Shown one piece after another: positions 2,973-45,771 of a DNA stretch of 59,182 nucleotides. Position 1 is the first letter of the stretch; every line of letters starts with the position of its first letter. Source of the stretch: Streptomyces sp. NBC_01267 (lineage in GTDB: Bacteria; Actinomycetota; Actinomycetes; Streptomycetales; Streptomycetaceae); the NCBI RefSeq assembly GCF_036241575.1, contig NZ_CP108457.1:1-59182 (forward strand), in the 5' to 3' direction. Under the pieces are notes generated by a model. That model did not search any database and was not told the origin of the DNA. It saw nothing but the letters and a program-made list of their open reading frames with translations. The position numbers and the translations under genes were made by a program.

Positions 2973-3320
2973 ATGGAGCGCACGTCCACGGAGATCGTGA
3001 AGGCCGCCGACATCACCGCCATCGAGACCAGCGCCGACCGGGGCGCCGTCGACAGCGAGCTCGCGTACCTGGCCCCGGCGGCCGCCGCCGCGCTGGGGCT
3101 GCTCGCCGACGCCATCAAGCGGGGCACCGCCGACCGCGACACCGTCGTCCAGGCGCTGAAGGAGGCGGCCGTTCACGAGCGCTTCGCCGACGTCCTGGCG
3201 GCCGCGTCCGAGGACGTCATGGACGAGACCGAGGACCCGTTCGACTTCGACGCCCGCCTGGACGCCGACAACCTCTCGGGCGCGGCCTCCCAGGTCCGCG
3301 ACCTCTTCCGCTGGCTGTAG
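2973..3320 (+). CDS. Hypothetical helical protein
   Basis: The protein has 115 residues, is acidic and alpha-helical, and has no recognisable domain, signal peptide or cysteine. An alanine-rich helix (about residues 33-45) is followed by a charged region and the acidic stretch MDETEDPFDFDARLD near residue 88. ATG 2973 has a GAGAGAGG ribosome site and lies 28 bp after the previous gene, in the same probable operon. Function unknown. Confidence 0.65.
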   Translation: MERTSTEIVKAADITAIETSADRGAVDSELAYLAPAAAAALGLLADAIKRGTADRDTVVQALKEAAVHERFADVLAAASEDVMDETEDPFDFDARLDADNLSGAASQVRDLFRWL

Positions 3321-3564: not shown

Positions 3565-3957
3565 GTGACCGACCCCGCGTCTGACACCCACCGCCAGGAG
3601 CAGCTCCTGGTCCCGCTCGCCGCCGAGGACGTCGCCGTGCTCGGCAGCGACGGCGAGCAGCTGGCCGCGCTGCTCGCCACCTCGCTGCACGGTCTGGCGC
3701 TGCTGCGCACGGGCCGCGCGAGCGCCGCCGAACTCGCGGCCGTCATCGAGGGCACCACCGGGCTGCTGGAGCGGCTGGAGGCTGTGCGGGACGCCGCCGT
3801 ACGCCAGGACGCGGCCCGGGACGTCTCCATCTCTCATAGCGACCTCGCGGCCGCCATGCACCTGAAGAGCCGGGCCACCGCCCAGACCCGGCGCCGCACG
3901 CTGCTGCAGACGACGCCGGGCGAGCTGGAGCGGTGGGCCACCGGCACCACCGGCTGA
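3565..3957 (+). CDS. Hypothetical helical protein
   Basis: The protein has 130 residues, mostly helical. Leucine-rich segments span about residues 15-75 and a basic C-terminal third contains RRRT. A strong GGAAGGAGACC ribosome site precedes the GTG start. It is the last gene of the 2462-3957 operon; a large hairpin follows 9 bp after the stop. No family recognised. Confidence 0.62.
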   Translation: MTDPASDTHRQEQLLVPLAAEDVAVLGSDGEQLAALLATSLHGLALLRTGRASAAELAAVIEGTTGLLERLEAVRDAAVRQDAARDVSISHSDLAAAMHLKSRATAQTRRRTLLQTTPGELERWATGTTG

Positions 3958-4468: not shown

Positions 4469-4688
4469 GGGGCTGCTCGTCAGCAAGACGGGCGAGATGC
4501 GCGTCGCGGGCGGTCTCCCACGGCACCCCGGTCTCCGGGGACGGGTAGCCGTTCGCGGCGATGTCCTCCAGCACCGAGGCGAGGATGTCGACCTTCGCGC
4601 GCTGGTCGGCCGCGTACGCGCGGACCGATTCGGCGGCGTGCTCATCGAGGGGCTGGCGTTCGGGCGCGGTGGCCGGCTGCTGGCTCAT
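4458..4688 (-). CDS. Antitoxin partner of the RelE/ParE-like toxin
   Basis: The protein has 76 residues: a polar, Pro/Gln-rich N-terminus and a helical middle (AAESVRAYAADQRAKVDILASVL). The C-terminal region should wrap the toxin; it contains YPSPETGVPWETARDAHLARL. ATG 4688 is preceded by AGGAG at 7 bp. The stop overlaps the toxin start. Size, order and overlap support the antitoxin role, but no DNA-binding family is recognised with certainty. Confidence 0.6.
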   Translation of the reverse strand: MSQQPATAPERQPLDEHAAESVRAYAADQRAKVDILASVLEDIAANGYPSPETGVPWETARDAHLARLADEQPRVA

Positions 4689-4828
4689 CCGGGGCTCCTG
4701 GGCTTCTCTCTGGGGTGTGCCACCACGGTATCGCCGGAGCGGGGCGCGGGAGCCGGTATGGACCAACCGGCTCGTGCTCGCCGGAAAAGGGCCTCAAGAG
4801 CCGGTGCGAACAGTCCGCGCGACACGAC

Positions 4829-5224
4829 TTACAGACCCCGATAATGGCATTCATCGAGTCCATTATTGATATTCACACACATGCTGACGCCAGTGGGTTT
4901 TTTGTCGAAGAAGTTGTCCTTGCAGCCGTCGTTGTGGGCCGGAGCGTTTGCCCTGTATTCGGTCCCGTTGGCCCCTCCACTGAAATACCAAACGGCATAC
5001 ATAGATTGACCGTCGGACAGATCATCGCATGTCCAACCATGGTTGGTCGAATATTTGTACCCTGCATGGCCGCTAGTTTCCCACCCGGCGGGAGGATACG
5101 CATAGACGGTGTCTGCCGCCTGTGCGGGGCCAGAGGCGAGAGCTAACCCGGACGCTGCAAACGCCACTGCAGTCAGCATTTTTGCCACCCTGCGGCCAGC
5201 ACGGTTTGCCCGCTGAGAAAACAT
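4829..5224 (-). CDS. Small secreted protein with four cysteines
   Basis: The protein has 131 residues. It starts with a typical Sec signal peptide: basic RANRAGRRVAK, a hydrophobic core LTAVAFAASGLALAS and the cleavage site AQA-AD near residue 36. The mature part of about 95 residues is rich in Tyr, Trp, Gly and Asn and has four cysteines, probably two disulphides. ATG 5224 has GAGGAG at 7 bp. Base composition is clearly less GC-rich than the neighbours, suggesting recent acquisition. A secreted inhibitor, bacteriocin-like protein or cell-surface protein are all possible; no family is recognised. Confidence 0.75.
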   Translation of the reverse strand: MFSQRANRAGRRVAKMLTAVAFAASGLALASGPAQAADTVYAYPPAGWETSGHAGYKYSTNHGWTCDDLSDGQSMYAVWYFSGGANGTEYRANAPAHNDGCKDNFFDKKPTGVSMCVNINNGLDECHYRGL

Positions 5225-5672
5225 GCAATTCTCCTCGTTCGTCAAAGCTGATGCATGCGACCGCCATTCCGTCATGGCGACGCTTTCGGGATTCCATACT
5301 GGGTCCGGAAGACCCTTCGGTCAAGGAGTCTGCTGCATCTACGTGGTCTTGACAATGATTTGCGATCACCTCAACATCCCGAGCCATAGGGCGATTTCAA
5401 AGTCGAGTTGATCTAGCAGGTGTGCTGGTCACGATGGTGTGATGAAGTCCCGTGGATGCGGGTGACCTTGCTAAGCCGCTGCGCCAGGAGACGCCTCCAA
5501 GGTCCGTTCCGCCGAGCACGCCACGCCAGCATTGAGCGGTCACTGGATCTCCGAGGGATTAACTGACCAGCACCGATCCAAGATCATAAGGTTTTTCAAT
5601 CGCTCTGGCCTCCGTCCAGCAATGCAGCTCGGCGGGCCGGTCACACAGGCCTACAGCACGCTCGAATTCGCG
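5225..5672. other. Gene-poor, lower-GC stretch
   Basis: No convincing gene. It contains a TTGACA hexamer on the plus strand at about 5348 and remnants of a coding-like texture, but no recognisable translation. It separates the secreted-protein gene from the broken tpg. Confidence 0.5.
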
Positions 5673-5675
5673 CTG

Positions 5676-5955
5676 CTAAAACCGTATTTCGAGCCACTTC
5701 ACGTCTGTGAAGTTCACCTCCAGGCCCCGGGGGCGCCGCCGCCTGACGGAAATAGGCGTCCGCGATGGCCTCCGCGACCGCGTCATGTAGCTTGCTATCC
5801 GTCGCATCGTCCTCCTCTGCGGTGAGGATGGCAGCCGCGTGGGACGGGCTGACGGCCACACTGGTGTCCCGAACCTGACCCGCGCGTGAGGTGCCTTCCG
5901 GGCCGAAGCCGAAGTAGGCCTGGCAGGAGATGACCAGCCCGTCCGAATCAGTCAT
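5676..5955 (-). pseudogene. Frameshifted C-terminal half of a second tpg (terminal protein)
   Basis: Reading left from ATG 5955, SDGLVISCQAYFGF and a later IADAYFR match the intact Tpg encoded at 7838-8398 (SDGIVISTRARFGF, IGEHYFR). The frame then changes, and the end of the gene continues in another frame as GLEVNFTDVKWLEIRF, against LLVEFTDVEQIEIDL in Tpg. The N-terminal half, with the HTH-like region, is missing; the upstream translation is unrelated. This is a degraded paralog of the terminal protein, probably left by exchange or recombination near a telomere. Confidence 0.8.
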
Positions 5956-17394: not shown

Positions 17395-19044
17395 TTATGG
17401 CTGCTCGCTGGACGCGGGGTGGGGCTCGTGGCGGCGGGTGAACTCCTTGGCCAACTCGACGCGGGAGCGGTGCGGGCCCCCCGAGGTGGTGCACCGGGCC
17501 TCGATGCCTTGACCGCAGTCGGGGCAGGCCACCTCGTACACTCGCCACGGCCGCTGCGTGCGCTGCGTGCGCTGCCGCTCTTTACGCTCCTCGATGATCG
17601 GCCGCATCCGCTCATCGTGGGGCACGCCCTGCGCCTCATCGGCTGTGGTGTCCGCGAGGCACGGCAGCCCCTTGCCGGCACCACAGCGGGGGCAGCTCCC
17701 CTTCAGCCGGCCCTTGCTGTCGACCTGCCGGTAAAGGCGTCCCTTTCCCGATCCCCGCGCACGTCGCTGCTGTCCCTGGCCGGGTTCGGCCGGAAGCCCT
17801 GCGCGCTCCCTCCACGTGTCGATCTGCGCCCGGCGCTGCGGACTGATGCTGACCTCATGCGCCGCCTGCACGAGCGCGTGGACCTTCGCGTAGAAAACGT
17901 CCGGGTCCATGAATCGAGGGAGGCGGTTGAGACCGTCGAGGAGGGCGTTCAGATGTTCGCTCCTGGCCGCCGCGACGGCGGCCAGGTAGTCGGTGGCCGC
18001 CGTGATCACGTGGTTCTCCGACTCGGAACTGTCGTCCTTGGCGACCGCCTTGGCGAGCTTCAGAAGCCTGCTGGCCTTTTTGTGGCGCCGATCGGCCGCG
18101 GCCCGGCCGAGGCTGGCGAACAACTGCTGCCGCTTGGCGACCTGCTTCTCAATCCAGAGGCATCCATGACGCAGGGCGGCATCCACCTTTTCCTGCAGAC
18201 CCGGGCTCACACCCGTGAGGCCGATGATCTCGCTGCACACCGACTCCGCCAGGGCGATGGACTCGGTCCGGCGCGCGTAGAGCAGCTTGCGGATCAGTTC
18301 TTGCGCCCGGGTGTCCTGCGCCGATTCCTGCTTCTTGCCCGGCGTCCACTTCGGTGCCGGGGGCGTTTTGCGGGCCTGGATGATCTGTTGGACCGCCGGC
18401 GTCGATAGGCCTCGGCTGGTGATCTCGCAGTCCTCGAGGCCGAACCACTCGGTGGGCCGGGCGAAGGCCTCGGTTCCGATCCGGACCTGGCGGGTTGTGC
18501 CCTGGCTGTCCAGACGGATGCGGTGCACGTACCAGCGCTCGATGAGGGTGTCGCGGTCTACCGGCACGGACAGGCCGAGCACCGGCTCGCTCTCCTCGTC
18601 CCATACCGGGGGCACCGTCTGGTCCAGGTGCATGCGCAGGCGCTGGTGTGGGAGGTGGATGTCGACAACTGAGCCGATCGGTGCCCCGTCGGGCTGGGTG
18701 AACTCGAAGTCGGCCTGTTCGCCGCGGTGGTGCAGCCACGCCGCAGCCGCGGATTTCACGTACAGGTGGTCGGCGCTGGAGACGCCGCGGGCCCGGCGCC
18801 CGCACACGTGGGGATGTCCGTCGGGGCCGGGGTGGTGGGCGAAGTGGCAGACCCGGTCGGTGTACAGCTTCGTGGTCAGCTGCAGGCCGCAGCCGCCCAA
18901 CAGCAGTCCACACCAGAACGAGTCACCTTCGTGTCGCTGCCGGAACGCGTCCAGCTCGATCGCCTCGAGCGGCAGCATGAGCGGCTCGTCGGAGTCCACA
19001 CCGCCCAGGACTGCCGTCTGGATCTGCCGCCTGTCGTCCACCAT
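17395..19044 (-). CDS. CoiA-like nuclease-domain protein with zinc ribbons
   Basis: The protein has 549 residues. Residues about 35-130 (WCGLLLGGCGLQLTTKLYTD, HFAHHPG, HLYVKSAAAAWL) resemble the competence protein CoiA family, which has a nuclease-like fold. A long helical middle (about 220-420) and two C-terminal zinc ribbons follow (CPRCGAGKGLPC near 460, CPDCGQGIEARC near 515). ATG 19044 has GGAGGGG at 7 bp. In Firmicutes CoiA helps transformation; here a role in processing incoming or transferred DNA is an inference. Confidence 0.6.
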   Translation of the reverse strand: MVDDRRQIQTAVLGGVDSDEPLMLPLEAIELDAFRQRHEGDSFWCGLLLGGCGLQLTTKLYTDRVCHFAHHPGPDGHPHVCGRRARGVSSADHLYVKSAAAAWLHHRGEQADFEFTQPDGAPIGSVVDIHLPHQRLRMHLDQTVPPVWDEESEPVLGLSVPVDRDTLIERWYVHRIRLDSQGTTRQVRIGTEAFARPTEWFGLEDCEITSRGLSTPAVQQIIQARKTPPAPKWTPGKKQESAQDTRAQELIRKLLYARRTESIALAESVCSEIIGLTGVSPGLQEKVDAALRHGCLWIEKQVAKRQQLFASLGRAAADRRHKKASRLLKLAKAVAKDDSSESENHVITAATDYLAAVAAARSEHLNALLDGLNRLPRFMDPDVFYAKVHALVQAAHEVSISPQRRAQIDTWRERAGLPAEPGQGQQRRARGSGKGRLYRQVDSKGRLKGSCPRCGAGKGLPCLADTTADEAQGVPHDERMRPIIEERKERQRTQRTQRPWRVYEVACPDCGQGIEARCTTSGGPHRSRVELAKEFTRRHEPHPASSEQP

Positions 19045-37310: not shown

Positions 37311-38102
37311 ATGGCACACAGCACCCGGCCCGTCGTCCACTACATGGCCACCCGGCCCGACGGCACCGTCCCGCCCAGCATCGGCGACGCCGCCGGGTAC
37401 GCGTACCCGGCACGGACGGGCGACCCCATCCCGACCGTCAACCTCGCCGACCACATCGGTGAGGTCGTCAACCACCCCACTCCGGGCAAGCCCTGGTACG
37501 ACGAGACCGCCTTCAGCTACTTCCGGACCTACACCCGTCCCGGCGAGCTTCTGGAACGCGTGCAGTGGCCGGCACGGCTGTGGGTCGTCGAGCCGCTCGG
37601 AGAGACCGGCACCTGGCACGGGTACTCGTACTGGGTGCTCTGCCACCAGCTGCGGGTGATCGAGGAAGCCGATCCGTGGCACGCGTTCGGACACCGCGGC
37701 AAACAGGTCATGGCCGTCCTCGCTCAGCTGCCCGACCTCGTCCGGCAGTGGGCCGACCAGTGGGTCGCAGACCCCGAGGGCATGCACCGCATGTACAAGG
37801 TGTGGGAGACGCGGGTGCAGGAAACTCGCGCGCTGACCAGCTGGGCGAGCTGCCGAGCGGAGTACTCCCGGCGAGAGGCTGCCCTACAGACGGCCACCCA
37901 GCTCGCCGGAGCTGCTGCCACCCAGGCCGCGACCGACGCGGGCGCCGACCCTCACGCCTTCGCCCTGATCCAGCTGCGAGCCCGCTGCCTGGTAGCCGGT
38001 CAGCTCATGTTCGACCGGATCCGCACCGGCGAGTACGAGCAGTCGATCCGCGGCCTGCTGCTCGGTTCCGGGCTCGACACCCCGGCCCCCGTCCCGGCCT
38101 GA
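37311..38102 (+). CDS. Hypothetical protein
   Basis: The protein has 263 residues. The N-terminal half is beta-rich (FRTYTRPGELLERVQWPARLWVVEPLG). The C-terminal half is helical (PDLVRQWADQWVADPEGMHRM, then an Ala/Thr-rich region). ATG 37311 follows GGAGGAAGTC. There is no signal peptide. Family not recognised; it is single-copy in the operon. Confidence 0.68.
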   Translation: MAHSTRPVVHYMATRPDGTVPPSIGDAAGYAYPARTGDPIPTVNLADHIGEVVNHPTPGKPWYDETAFSYFRTYTRPGELLERVQWPARLWVVEPLGETGTWHGYSYWVLCHQLRVIEEADPWHAFGHRGKQVMAVLAQLPDLVRQWADQWVADPEGMHRMYKVWETRVQETRALTSWASCRAEYSRREAALQTATQLAGAAATQAATDAGADPHAFALIQLRARCLVAGQLMFDRIRTGEYEQSIRGLLLGSGLDTPAPVPA

Positions 38103-44236: not shown

Positions 44237-44707
44237 GTGCAGCAGATCCGCCGCACCGCAGCTTTCGCCGCCACCGCCATGGCCGTCGTCCTGACGCTCA
44301 CCGCGTGCGGCGCGACCACCCAGTCCCCGGCACACCACGAGAGCCGCATGAAGAAGGCCGCCGGCATCGGCTCCCTGTCCATCATCTGCAACAAGGACAT
44401 CTGGGAGAGCACCCGCCCGGACGGGCTGAAGAAGGTCACGACCACCCCCGCCGATGGCCCGCGCGGTCAGCGAGGCATGGTCCGGATCACGCTCACCGGT
44501 GCCCAGCTCGTCACATACCTCGATCAGCTGGACCAGGACGCACACCCCGGCTGGATGGGATCAGACATCCCCGACCAGGAAGCCGTCTCCGGACGCGTCT
44601 ACGACGGGCTCGCGCCTGCCATCGACAAGGCCGCCACCGCGCGTTCCGCCGCCGACCCAGCCCCCGAGATCCTCATCGACGACACCCTCGCCACCAAGGC
44701 ACCCTGA
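44237..44707 (+). CDS. Lipoprotein
   Basis: The protein has 156 residues. The signal peptide RRTAAFAATAMAVVLT ends in the lipobox LTAC (Cys near residue 22), so it is lipidated on the outer face of the membrane. The mature part of about 130 residues is mixed alpha/beta. GTG 44237 has CTGGAGG at 10 bp. As the last gene of the transfer operon it could act in surface or entry exclusion, but no family is recognised. Confidence 0.8.
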   Translation: MQQIRRTAAFAATAMAVVLTLTACGATTQSPAHHESRMKKAAGIGSLSIICNKDIWESTRPDGLKKVTTTPADGPRGQRGMVRITLTGAQLVTYLDQLDQDAHPGWMGSDIPDQEAVSGRVYDGLAPAIDKAATARSAADPAPEILIDDTLATKAP

Positions 44708-44712
44708 CCACG

Positions 44713-44757
44713 AAGCGGCCCTCCGCCCCGGACAAGTTCCGGGGCGGAGGGCCGCTT
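44713..44757. terminator. Strong terminator of the transfer operon
   Basis: A perfect 20-bp stem (44713-44732/44738-44757, core GCGGCCCTCCGCCCCGGA) with a CAAGT loop is followed by TTTTTT. It is the only classical intrinsic terminator with a T-run in this strand and serves the convergent parB as well. Confidence 0.92.
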
Positions 44758-44769
44758 TTTTGTTGTGCC

Positions 44770-45771
44770 TCAGAGGCGGCTGGTCAGGATGTCGAGCATC
44801 GCTTCCAGGTCGGCATGAGTCATGTTGGCCGTACACAAGTCCGCCACAACCTGCGGGTTAGTCCACTCCACCGTGACCGTGGGCAGCGCAGTCGCAGAAG
44901 AGGTGGAGTCATTCCGGGGCTCGGGGATACCGCTGCCCGCTTCGCCGTCAGTGGTTACCGCGGTAACCACTGACGGGCCGACGGAGGCGGTGTCCGTCTC
45001 CGGATCGCCTCCACCCTCGGGAGTGGTTACCGCGGTAACCACCGGATCCACAGACTCCGGCTGCTTCAGCTGCCGTCGCTGCTGAGGGGGTTGCTGCTTG
45101 CGCTGCTCAGCCTGCTCCTTCTTGCGCTGCTCTGCAGCATCCTGCTCGGCACGCCAAGTGGAGACTTGGTCCGCGGCTGGCACACGGGCCAGCCGCCGCG
45201 CATCCCGAACGGCCAGATCCCCAGCCCGCAGCATGCCCTGCATCTCGGGAGTGAGCTTGAGCAACGCTCGCCGCTGGGACACCCAGCCATGAGTCCAGCC
45301 GCGGGCCTTCGCGGCTTCACGGGTACTGGGGTACTCCGCGACGACCGCCTCGACTGCCCGGGCTTCTTCAATGATGTCGAAGTCTTGGCGGCCGATGTTC
45401 TCCTCAACGGCCGCGCCCAGCAGCTCACCACGGGACACCGCGACCGTCTCATCGTGAACGATGAGGAGCTCAGCGCGCCCGAACTTGTGCGCGGCGGCCA
45501 GCCGGCGGCAGCCGTTGACAACGACGTACTGCGCGTGGCCCACGCGCTCGGCATCCTCGGGCCACAGTGCGAGATAGCCCTTGGAAGTGACCACCAGGCA
45601 CGGCTGGAGCTGCCGCTTGGCGATGGACTTGAGGTCTTCGAGATCCCCAAGGTCTTCGCGCGGGTTGCGCGGGTTGGCGACCAGGAGAGCAAGGGGTACG
45701 CCTGCAGACGTATCTGCGGCGACCGCGACCGGCTTGTCGTCGATGGTCGCCAGATTTACACGGCGACCCAT
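44770..45771 (-). CDS. parB: ParB partition protein
   Basis: The protein has 333 residues. The N-terminal ParB domain (about 25-125) has ANPRNPREDLGDLEDLKSIA, VVVNGCRRLAAAHKFG and VEENIGRQDFDIIEEARAV. An HTH (ARGWTHGWVSQRRALLKLTPE, about 155-180) follows, then a Gln/Lys linker and a C-terminal dimer-like part. The linker contains VVTAVTT twice, each encoded by the 20-bp palindrome described separately. It overlaps nothing but starts 1 bp after the parA stop, forming a parAB operon that opposes the transfer operon. Confidence 0.92.
   Translation of the reverse strand: MGRRVNLATIDDKPVAVAADTSAGVPLALLVANPRNPREDLGDLEDLKSIAKRQLQPCLVVTSKGYLALWPEDAERVGHAQYVVVNGCRRLAAAHKFGRAELLIVHDETVAVSRGELLGAAVEENIGRQDFDIIEEARAVEAVVAEYPSTREAAKARGWTHGWVSQRRALLKLTPEMQGMLRAGDLAVRDARRLARVPAADQVSTWRAEQDAAEQRKKEQAEQRKQQPPQQRRQLKQPESVDPVVTAVTTPEGGGDPETDTASVGPSVVTAVTTDGEAGSGIPEPRNDSTSSATALPTVTVEWTNPQVVADLCTANMTHADLEAMLDILTSRL
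44945..45042. repeat. Two identical palindromes inside parB (candidate partition site)
   Basis: GTGGTTACCGCGGTAACCAC occurs at 44951-44970, extended to a perfect 32-bp palindrome 44945-44976, and again at 45023-45042. Centres are 72 bp apart. I see no third copy in the window. It is unlike the chromosomal parS. Twice repeating an exact 20-bp palindrome inside a low-complexity linker of parB suggests a DNA function, most simply ParB binding. Confidence 0.65.

Follow-up and report, generated by a model that had tools for sequence, protein, structure and literature searches.

Candidate partition sites within the linker-coding part of parB in a Streptomyces plasmid and its relatives

Chromosomal parS sites form a family of 14–16 bp sequences of the class TGTTTCACGTGAAACA, which includes parS-359 of Bacillus subtilis, and KorB of plasmid RK2 has many operators, each of 13 bp with TTTAGC arms. 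Also comparable to the locus studied here are the two partition systems of SCP1 from Streptomyces coelicolor A3(2): ParB1 and ParB2 are each described as binding three identical inverted repeats, of which one copy lies inside the parB gene itself, on the evidence of ChIP-seq and BLI (PMC13245405). In the same account, retention went from ~19% to 51% with an ectopic parB1 whose internal site had been recoded, and the authors offer two possible explanations of the partial rescue, the absence of the site and a raised ParB1 level (PMC13245405). With such precedents in SCP1, in SCP2 and on the B. subtilis chromosome, an intragenic parS is already a known kind of element.

The window analysed here (the whole stretch of DNA, 59,182 nucleotides) is the third of three contigs in a Streptomyces genome of 8,069,363 bp; the first, C1, is taken from its size as the chromosome, and the second, C2, is a co-resident plasmid of 149,100 bp. 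Related plasmids come from Streptomyces, and the closest named relative is the linear plasmid pSITFR-16b (62,326 bp), whose DNA is 98.1% identical to the window over 16.6 kb, whose ParB is 99.7% identical, and whose annotated ParA occupies the place corresponding to the window's parA. A NUDIX gene stands next to parAB, with a MobF relaxase beyond it on the plus strand. Between parB and the convergent open reading frame (ORF) 44237–44707, a 20-bp inverted repeat with a 5-nt loop, followed by a T-run (44713–44757), looks like a terminator.

ParB consists of a ParB N-terminal fold, a helix-turn-helix (modelled helix 161–170), a linker at residues 227–305, and a short C-terminal helical pair. In an AlphaFold2 model (22 rows, mean pLDDT 82) the ParB fold and helix-turn-helix have high confidence, while the linker is modelled as disordered, having no secondary structure and a pLDDT below 50 at residues 246–284 and 286–296; both VVTAVTT motifs (Table 1) lie inside it, with block-mean pLDDT of at most 50. 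Foldseek matches of the model are ParB, Spo0J, Noc and KorB, and besides the Pfam match in Table 1 the protein scores 43.6 bits against TIGR00180, under that model's cut-off of 58.45. At the position of the GERR-type CTP motif it reads NGCRRLAAA, a cysteine replacing the glutamate; NGCRR for NGERR (residues 86–90) is likewise found in the related loci L004–L007, and not in L008. The CTP pockets of Streptomyces plasmid ParBs are described as less conserved, and the SCP1 ParBs, with divergent pockets, as CTPases (PMC13245405).

Table 1. Features of the partition locus, in window coordinates
Feature	Position	Strand	Description
candidate parS, long copy	44945–44976	.	32-bp perfect palindrome CCGTCAGTGGTTACCGCGGTAACCACTGACGG; same in pSITFR-16b
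candidate parS, short copy	45023–45042	.	20-bp perfect palindrome GTGGTTACCGCGGTAACCAC; same in pSITFR-16b
first linker motif VVTAVTT, residues 244–250	45022–45042	-	codons of the palindrome at 45023
second linker motif VVTAVTT, residues 268–274	44950–44970	-	codons of the palindrome at 44951
parB, 333 aa	44770–45771	-	Pfam HTH_ParB 37.1 bits (cut-off 22.6); AlphaFold2 model; Foldseek
parA, 245 aa	45773–46510	-	Pfam AAA_31 and CbiA above cut-off; directly upstream of parB

A sequence-only reading of this DNA had described two palindromes in the linker part of parB, with centres 72 bp apart, one extended to 32 bp and both read as VVTAVTT, and on re-reading each of these details proved exact. 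The sequence GTGGTTACCGCGGTAACCAC occurs at 44951–44970, as the middle of the 32-bp palindrome, and again as the short copy; both are read in the same frame of parB, as GTG GTT ACC GCG GTA ACC ACT, with parA directly upstream. There is no third copy in the window at a tolerance of up to three mismatches, nor any in 100 shuffles. The window holds five perfect even palindromes with arms of at least 10 (starting at 2405, 37392, 38200, 44945 and 45023), and the parB pair alone among them have their sequence in common. The longest of the five, at 2405–2452, is the 48-bp CTCCCCTGTATGGACTTCAATACATGTATTGAAGTCCATACAGGGGAG with an AT-rich centre, and that at 37392–37411 is the 20-bp GCCGGGTACGCGTACCCGGC.

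The same reading had called the site plasmid-specific, and the genome bears this out. The 16-bp core GGTTACCGCGGTAACC, which is not of the TGTTTCACGTGAAACA type, has its only exact occurrences in the entire genome at the two places in parB and so no exact match on the host chromosome; at two mismatches it has six matches on the chromosome and 11 on C2, all 11 of which read GTTTACCGCGGTAAAC. The 20-mer is present in one of 392 genomes of the genus, namely its own. The C2 locus (L105) offers a natural comparison for the window plasmid: its ParB is 42% identical to the window's over residues 2–251, its 8-base half-site differs from the window's by one base, and its parB (4542–5720) contains four in-frame copies of TTTACCGCGGTAAA at 48-bp spacing, read RFTAVN four times, with four more copies upstream (2979–3067 and 3722–3735). 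The genome has 11 copies of TTTACCGCGGTAAA, all on C2; three of them, at 41-bp spacing, lie about 75 kb from the C2 parAB, at 18053–18148 (L106, 2554–2649).

Taken alone, the window offers modest odds and evidence that is no more than suggestive. Given VVTAVTT and the codon usage of eight plasmid genes, synonymous sampling yields an arm of 10 or longer in 3.9% of draws for either site; for the 32-bp copy, an arm of 16 or longer appears in 0.38%. When the synonymous codons of parB are permuted, a palindrome with a net arm of at least 8 remains in 45 of 100 shuffles, so that the strong evidence has to be found among relatives.

Related loci were taken from genome contigs (the best 80 of 110), 16 viral contigs, six plasmid loci, and C2. 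A Streptomycetaceae set of 41 comprises the window, L003–L005, L008, L009, L016, L105 and L059–L091, of which L061 and L089–L091 (contigs of a viral collection) entered by similarity; a Mycobacteriales-type set of 50 comprises L006, L007 and L010–L058 without L016, and includes some metagenome actinobacteria and a few short ORFs (for example L057 and L058). There is some redundancy, L003 being almost the same as the window and L065 matching L105 exactly over the tree columns, and 13 remote viral contigs (L092–L104) were set aside from the counts. Sites outside parB were sought in up to 2.6 kb of upstream and 1.6 kb of downstream sequence, as far as it reached, and the list of cognate motifs was drawn up following an initial blind scan for palindromes.

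At 36 of the 41 Streptomycetaceae loci (L078 being counted by its core, with arms of 7) parB contains a cognate palindrome, against none of the 50 Mycobacteriales-type loci; outside parB one occurs at 32 and 45 of them, respectively, many relatives having copies upstream of parA. Within the Streptomycetaceae set, 25 loci have at least two inside sites and nine, the window included, have inside sites only; throughout the window clade (window, L003, L004, L005 and L009), the stretches searched beyond parB contained no cognate copy. Counting palindromes of whatever sequence with a net arm of at least 8, and so without bias, gives the same picture: 37 of 41 Streptomycetaceae loci have one (L063 an unrelated palindrome only) where synonymous-codon shuffles would give 11.5, and 4 of 50 Mycobacteriales-type loci where they would give 3.4; for the 12 remote viral contigs with a sufficiently long ORF the figures are 3 and 1.9. 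The five Streptomycetaceae loci lacking a cognate intragenic palindrome are L016, L063, L071, L074 and L087.

A further 13 named loci, 12 plasmids and the phage ZL12, were hand-picked from match lists. Eight of them (L110–L115, L118 and L122) have an even palindrome inside parB; another four (L117, L119, L120 and L121) have a 13-bp odd inverted repeat in the parB linker, in one frame and with copies outside too; and L116 has copies outside parB only. A prediction for this distant odd-repeat class was recorded before six more loci were fetched, and an intragenic odd repeat was present in five of the six (L123, L124, L125, L126 and L128, the ORF of L125 being derived in the present analysis), L127 being the sole miss; in L124 the copies are inside parB only. 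Codon-block shuffles of each locus produced such an odd repeat in 0 or 1 of 100. Overall, 17 of the 19 further loci carry an intragenic site, nine of them in the 13-bp odd form. Since five of the 41 loci in the discovery set and two of the 19 added later lack the site, intragenic parS would appear to be common in these plasmids, not obligatory. In a quick tree the window clade adjoins the Mycobacteriales-type clade and is separate from the main Streptomyces one (clade support 94, support of the join 89, neither starred), the tree being unsure for its long branches L091, L121, L119 and L005; the history of the intragenic site may have been one origin followed by losses, or several gains.

What the linker keeps is indicated by how the sites are read. 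The discovery set has 70 inside sites, all in the same frame, and the peptide follows the half-site: VVTAVTT goes with GTTACC, FTAVN or FTAVK with TTTACC, YTAVY with TATACC, FSALK with TTTAGC, and LSADN or LSADK with TTGTCC. Codons were counted in 52 ParBs, leaving out L003 and L065; of the further loci, the count covered the first 13 and not the last six. FTAV[NK], found by peptide, has 51 occurrences in 29 of the 52, and is coded TTT ACC GCG GTA in 51/51, with background shares in the same genes of 6.3% for TTT among Phe codons, 44.9% for ACC (Thr), 29.6% for GCG (Ala) and 8.7% for GTA (Val). LS[AT]D[NK] has 16 occurrences in 7 of the 52, with Leu as TTG, Ser as TCC and Asp as GAC in 16/16, TTG making up 6.0% of Leu codons elsewhere in those genes. 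In the phage-plasmid pZL12 (L122, aa 257) the site is in another frame and reads VYRGK; in NBC_00150 (L128, aa 293–341) four copies read LSRRD, and L121, with the identical half-site, reads YHGVI. Two of the three frames are stop-free for sites of the GTTACC and TTTACC types, as read from their sequence, and the third contains TAA. These patterns indicate that the conserved thing in the linker is DNA, rather than protein. Selection on the peptide VVTAVTT, for example as a ParA or ParB contact motif, with the palindrome as a by-product, would fit the duplication of the motif and the ease with which V, T and A codons become palindromic (the 3.9% per site given above); against it stand the fixed codons of the peptide-found motifs despite their rarity, the different peptides of other plasmids and the other frame used by two relatives, which leave it scarcely credible. 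The earlier remark that the protein does not need exact repetition at the DNA level agrees with palindromes that stay while peptides and frames change, and the check then proposed, for synonymous conservation in homologous parB genes, came out strongly positive both in these codons and in the 36 of 41 loci.

Inside and outside sites also match one another. At the loci having both, the commonest 7-base half-site is identical in 27/27 (permutation mean 17.0), an agreement reached in 0 of 20,000 permutations, and the 8-base half-site in 26/27 (permutation mean 8.5). Across the 86 loci with a site, ParB residue 162, in the recognition helix, is top of 185 columns in mutual information with the half-site class: it is A in 14/14 TTAACC loci (and two others), G in 50/57 TTTACC loci (and also with GTTACC and TTTAGC), S in 6/6 TTGTCC loci (and two others), and N or Q in two TATACC loci. 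Among TTTACC loci, residue 161 is K, P or N in 26/27 where the next outer base is G, and E, A, Q or G in 22/23 where it is C, a grouping of 50 loci chosen after the data were seen. Residue 161 aligns to R173 of Caulobacter ParB, which is described as setting preference between parS and NBS (PMC7383237, to whose listed residues the numbering was matched). Because the relatives share descent, independent pairs on well-supported branches were counted: for residue 162, two of four pairs go the same way, none the opposite way and two show no difference, and for residue 161, an average of 3.5 of four go the same way and none the opposite way, both too few for significance. Such natural ParB/parS pairs lend themselves to the study of how centromere specificity diverges; L004 (H161, GTTACC) and L009 (P161, TTTACC), for example, have 18-residue recognition-helix stretches that differ at two positions only, residue 161 and the final one. 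A different regulator, of the plasmid or the host, might occupy the sites in place of ParB; the cognate sites, however, surround parAB in relatives and covary with the recognition helix of ParB, and the host chromosome has no exact site, so that we regard a different regulator as very unlikely.

Symmetry was profiled over 64 inside and 157 outside sites, without the near-identical L003, L013, L029, L030, L056 and L065. Past about 11 bases out from the centre it drops almost to background, apart from a small excess at 13–16 bases, and the 32-bp extension was therefore rejected as a functional requirement of the family. In the window clade the longer arm is always in one of the two copies (window 16, L004 19, L005 16 and L009 12, those of L004 and L005 including one mismatch each). 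In the parB linkers of L084 and L088, TTGTCC-AC-GGACAA has both half-sites intact and a central dinucleotide that breaks the palindrome, suggesting that the centre is not read. Selection might instead have acted on a hairpin of the parB transcript, serving attenuation or mRNA turnover: the long copy has a strong predicted stem of −26.3 kcal/mol (z −5.3), and the two copies paired reach z −7.1. Every perfect palindrome folds, though, the plasmids concerned retain the sequence outside parB as well, symmetry fades past about 11 bases, and the half-site covaries with a recognition-helix residue of ParB; we hold such a hairpin to be highly improbable as the object of selection.

The two palindromes are thus, very probably, the plasmid's parS, lying where parB codes for the linker that is modelled as disordered. 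The suggestion of a parS embedded in the gene for its own binding protein gains support from its persistence across peptides, from the cognate sites outside and from the covariation at residue 162. Sequence shows where the sites lie, the constraint on their DNA, the agreement of cognate sites and their uniqueness in the genome; from these we infer ParB binding, clamp loading, segregation and a benefit of co-inheritance, as follows. Each monomer of a ParB dimer would dock its helix-turn-helix domain on one of the two half-sites GGTTACCG; the palindromes would act as nucleation sites, at which docked ParB, by analogy with other ParBs, would close as a CTP-dependent clamp, slide or spread onto flanking DNA, and be moved by ParA. 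The parB gene would carry the site in its open reading frame and rewrite it whenever the specificity of the recognition helix changed, so that protein and target would travel as a single module. An overlapping code of this kind would sit naturally in a disordered linker. The linker accepts very different peptides, which lets a site occupy the reading frame and be rewritten.

ParB bound within its own gene could also halt transcription and so set its own level, with partition secondary. The sites do lie in a transcribed gene, copies upstream of parA in many relatives are in operator position, and the ParB-fold protein KorB is described as a repressor (PMC11790492); the window clade, on the other side, showed no copy in the sequence searched around parB, and the ectopic SCP1 parB1 with its recoded internal site rescued stability in part, for which the missing site or the raised ParB level are possible causes (PMC13245405). 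We consider roadblock repression unlikely as the primary function, and the two roles are not exclusive: it may operate alongside partition. Returning to partition, we somewhat favour a broader reading, in which the parB linker of Streptomyces plasmids is a general landing pad that holds parS as an overlapping code in one to four copies, rewritten with ParB specificity, making the protein and its target one inseparable gene, with some plasmids, the window's included, having no other centromere.

Neither the available text of the precedent papers nor the literature searched (titles and openings of abstracts) yielded a statement on the generality, frame independence or covariation of intragenic parS, which may nevertheless be in print. 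A literature text search with TTACCGCGGTAA returned one Aspergillus paper, which is unrelated, and four related strings returned nothing relevant by title or start of abstract; the portions seen of PMC12207404, PMC7276702, PMC8743542 and PMC7157519 contain no intragenic site for the window's ParB family. In a protein search with L089, S. coelicolor was absent among the 25 matches listed. For practical purposes, recoding or moving a Streptomyces-plasmid parB could remove or move its centromere.

Like RK2 KorB, the window's ParB is a ParB-fold protein of a plasmid, and KorB chains are among its Foldseek matches. The locus resembles B. subtilis parS-359 in having parS within parB (PMC4442127), and differs from it in that parS-359 is chromosomal. 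With SCP2 of S. coelicolor it shares an inverted-repeat parS inside a coding sequence, there an 18-bp repeat in the ParB-like parT of parATS, under a ChIP peak; ParT is described as CTP-independent (PMC12260392), whereas the window protein has a ParB/Spo0J fold and a GxxRxxA-like motif. The locus is also like parABS1 and parABS2 of SCP1, a linear Streptomyces plasmid with type I helix-turn-helix ParBs, an inverted-repeat parS copy in parB and, as here, two coexisting systems, those of SCP1 discriminating near-identical sites (PMC13245405). As compared by description, SCP1 has three sites round each operon, with 13-bp and 19-bp repeats and a 15-bp core in parS2 (PMC13245405); the window differs in having a pair of even palindromes, with no copy found beyond parB. 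Set beside these systems, the present comparison extends three experimental cases (SCP1 parB1, SCP1 parB2 and SCP2 parT) to an apparent rule across a large plasmid family, one that comes with a sequence test.
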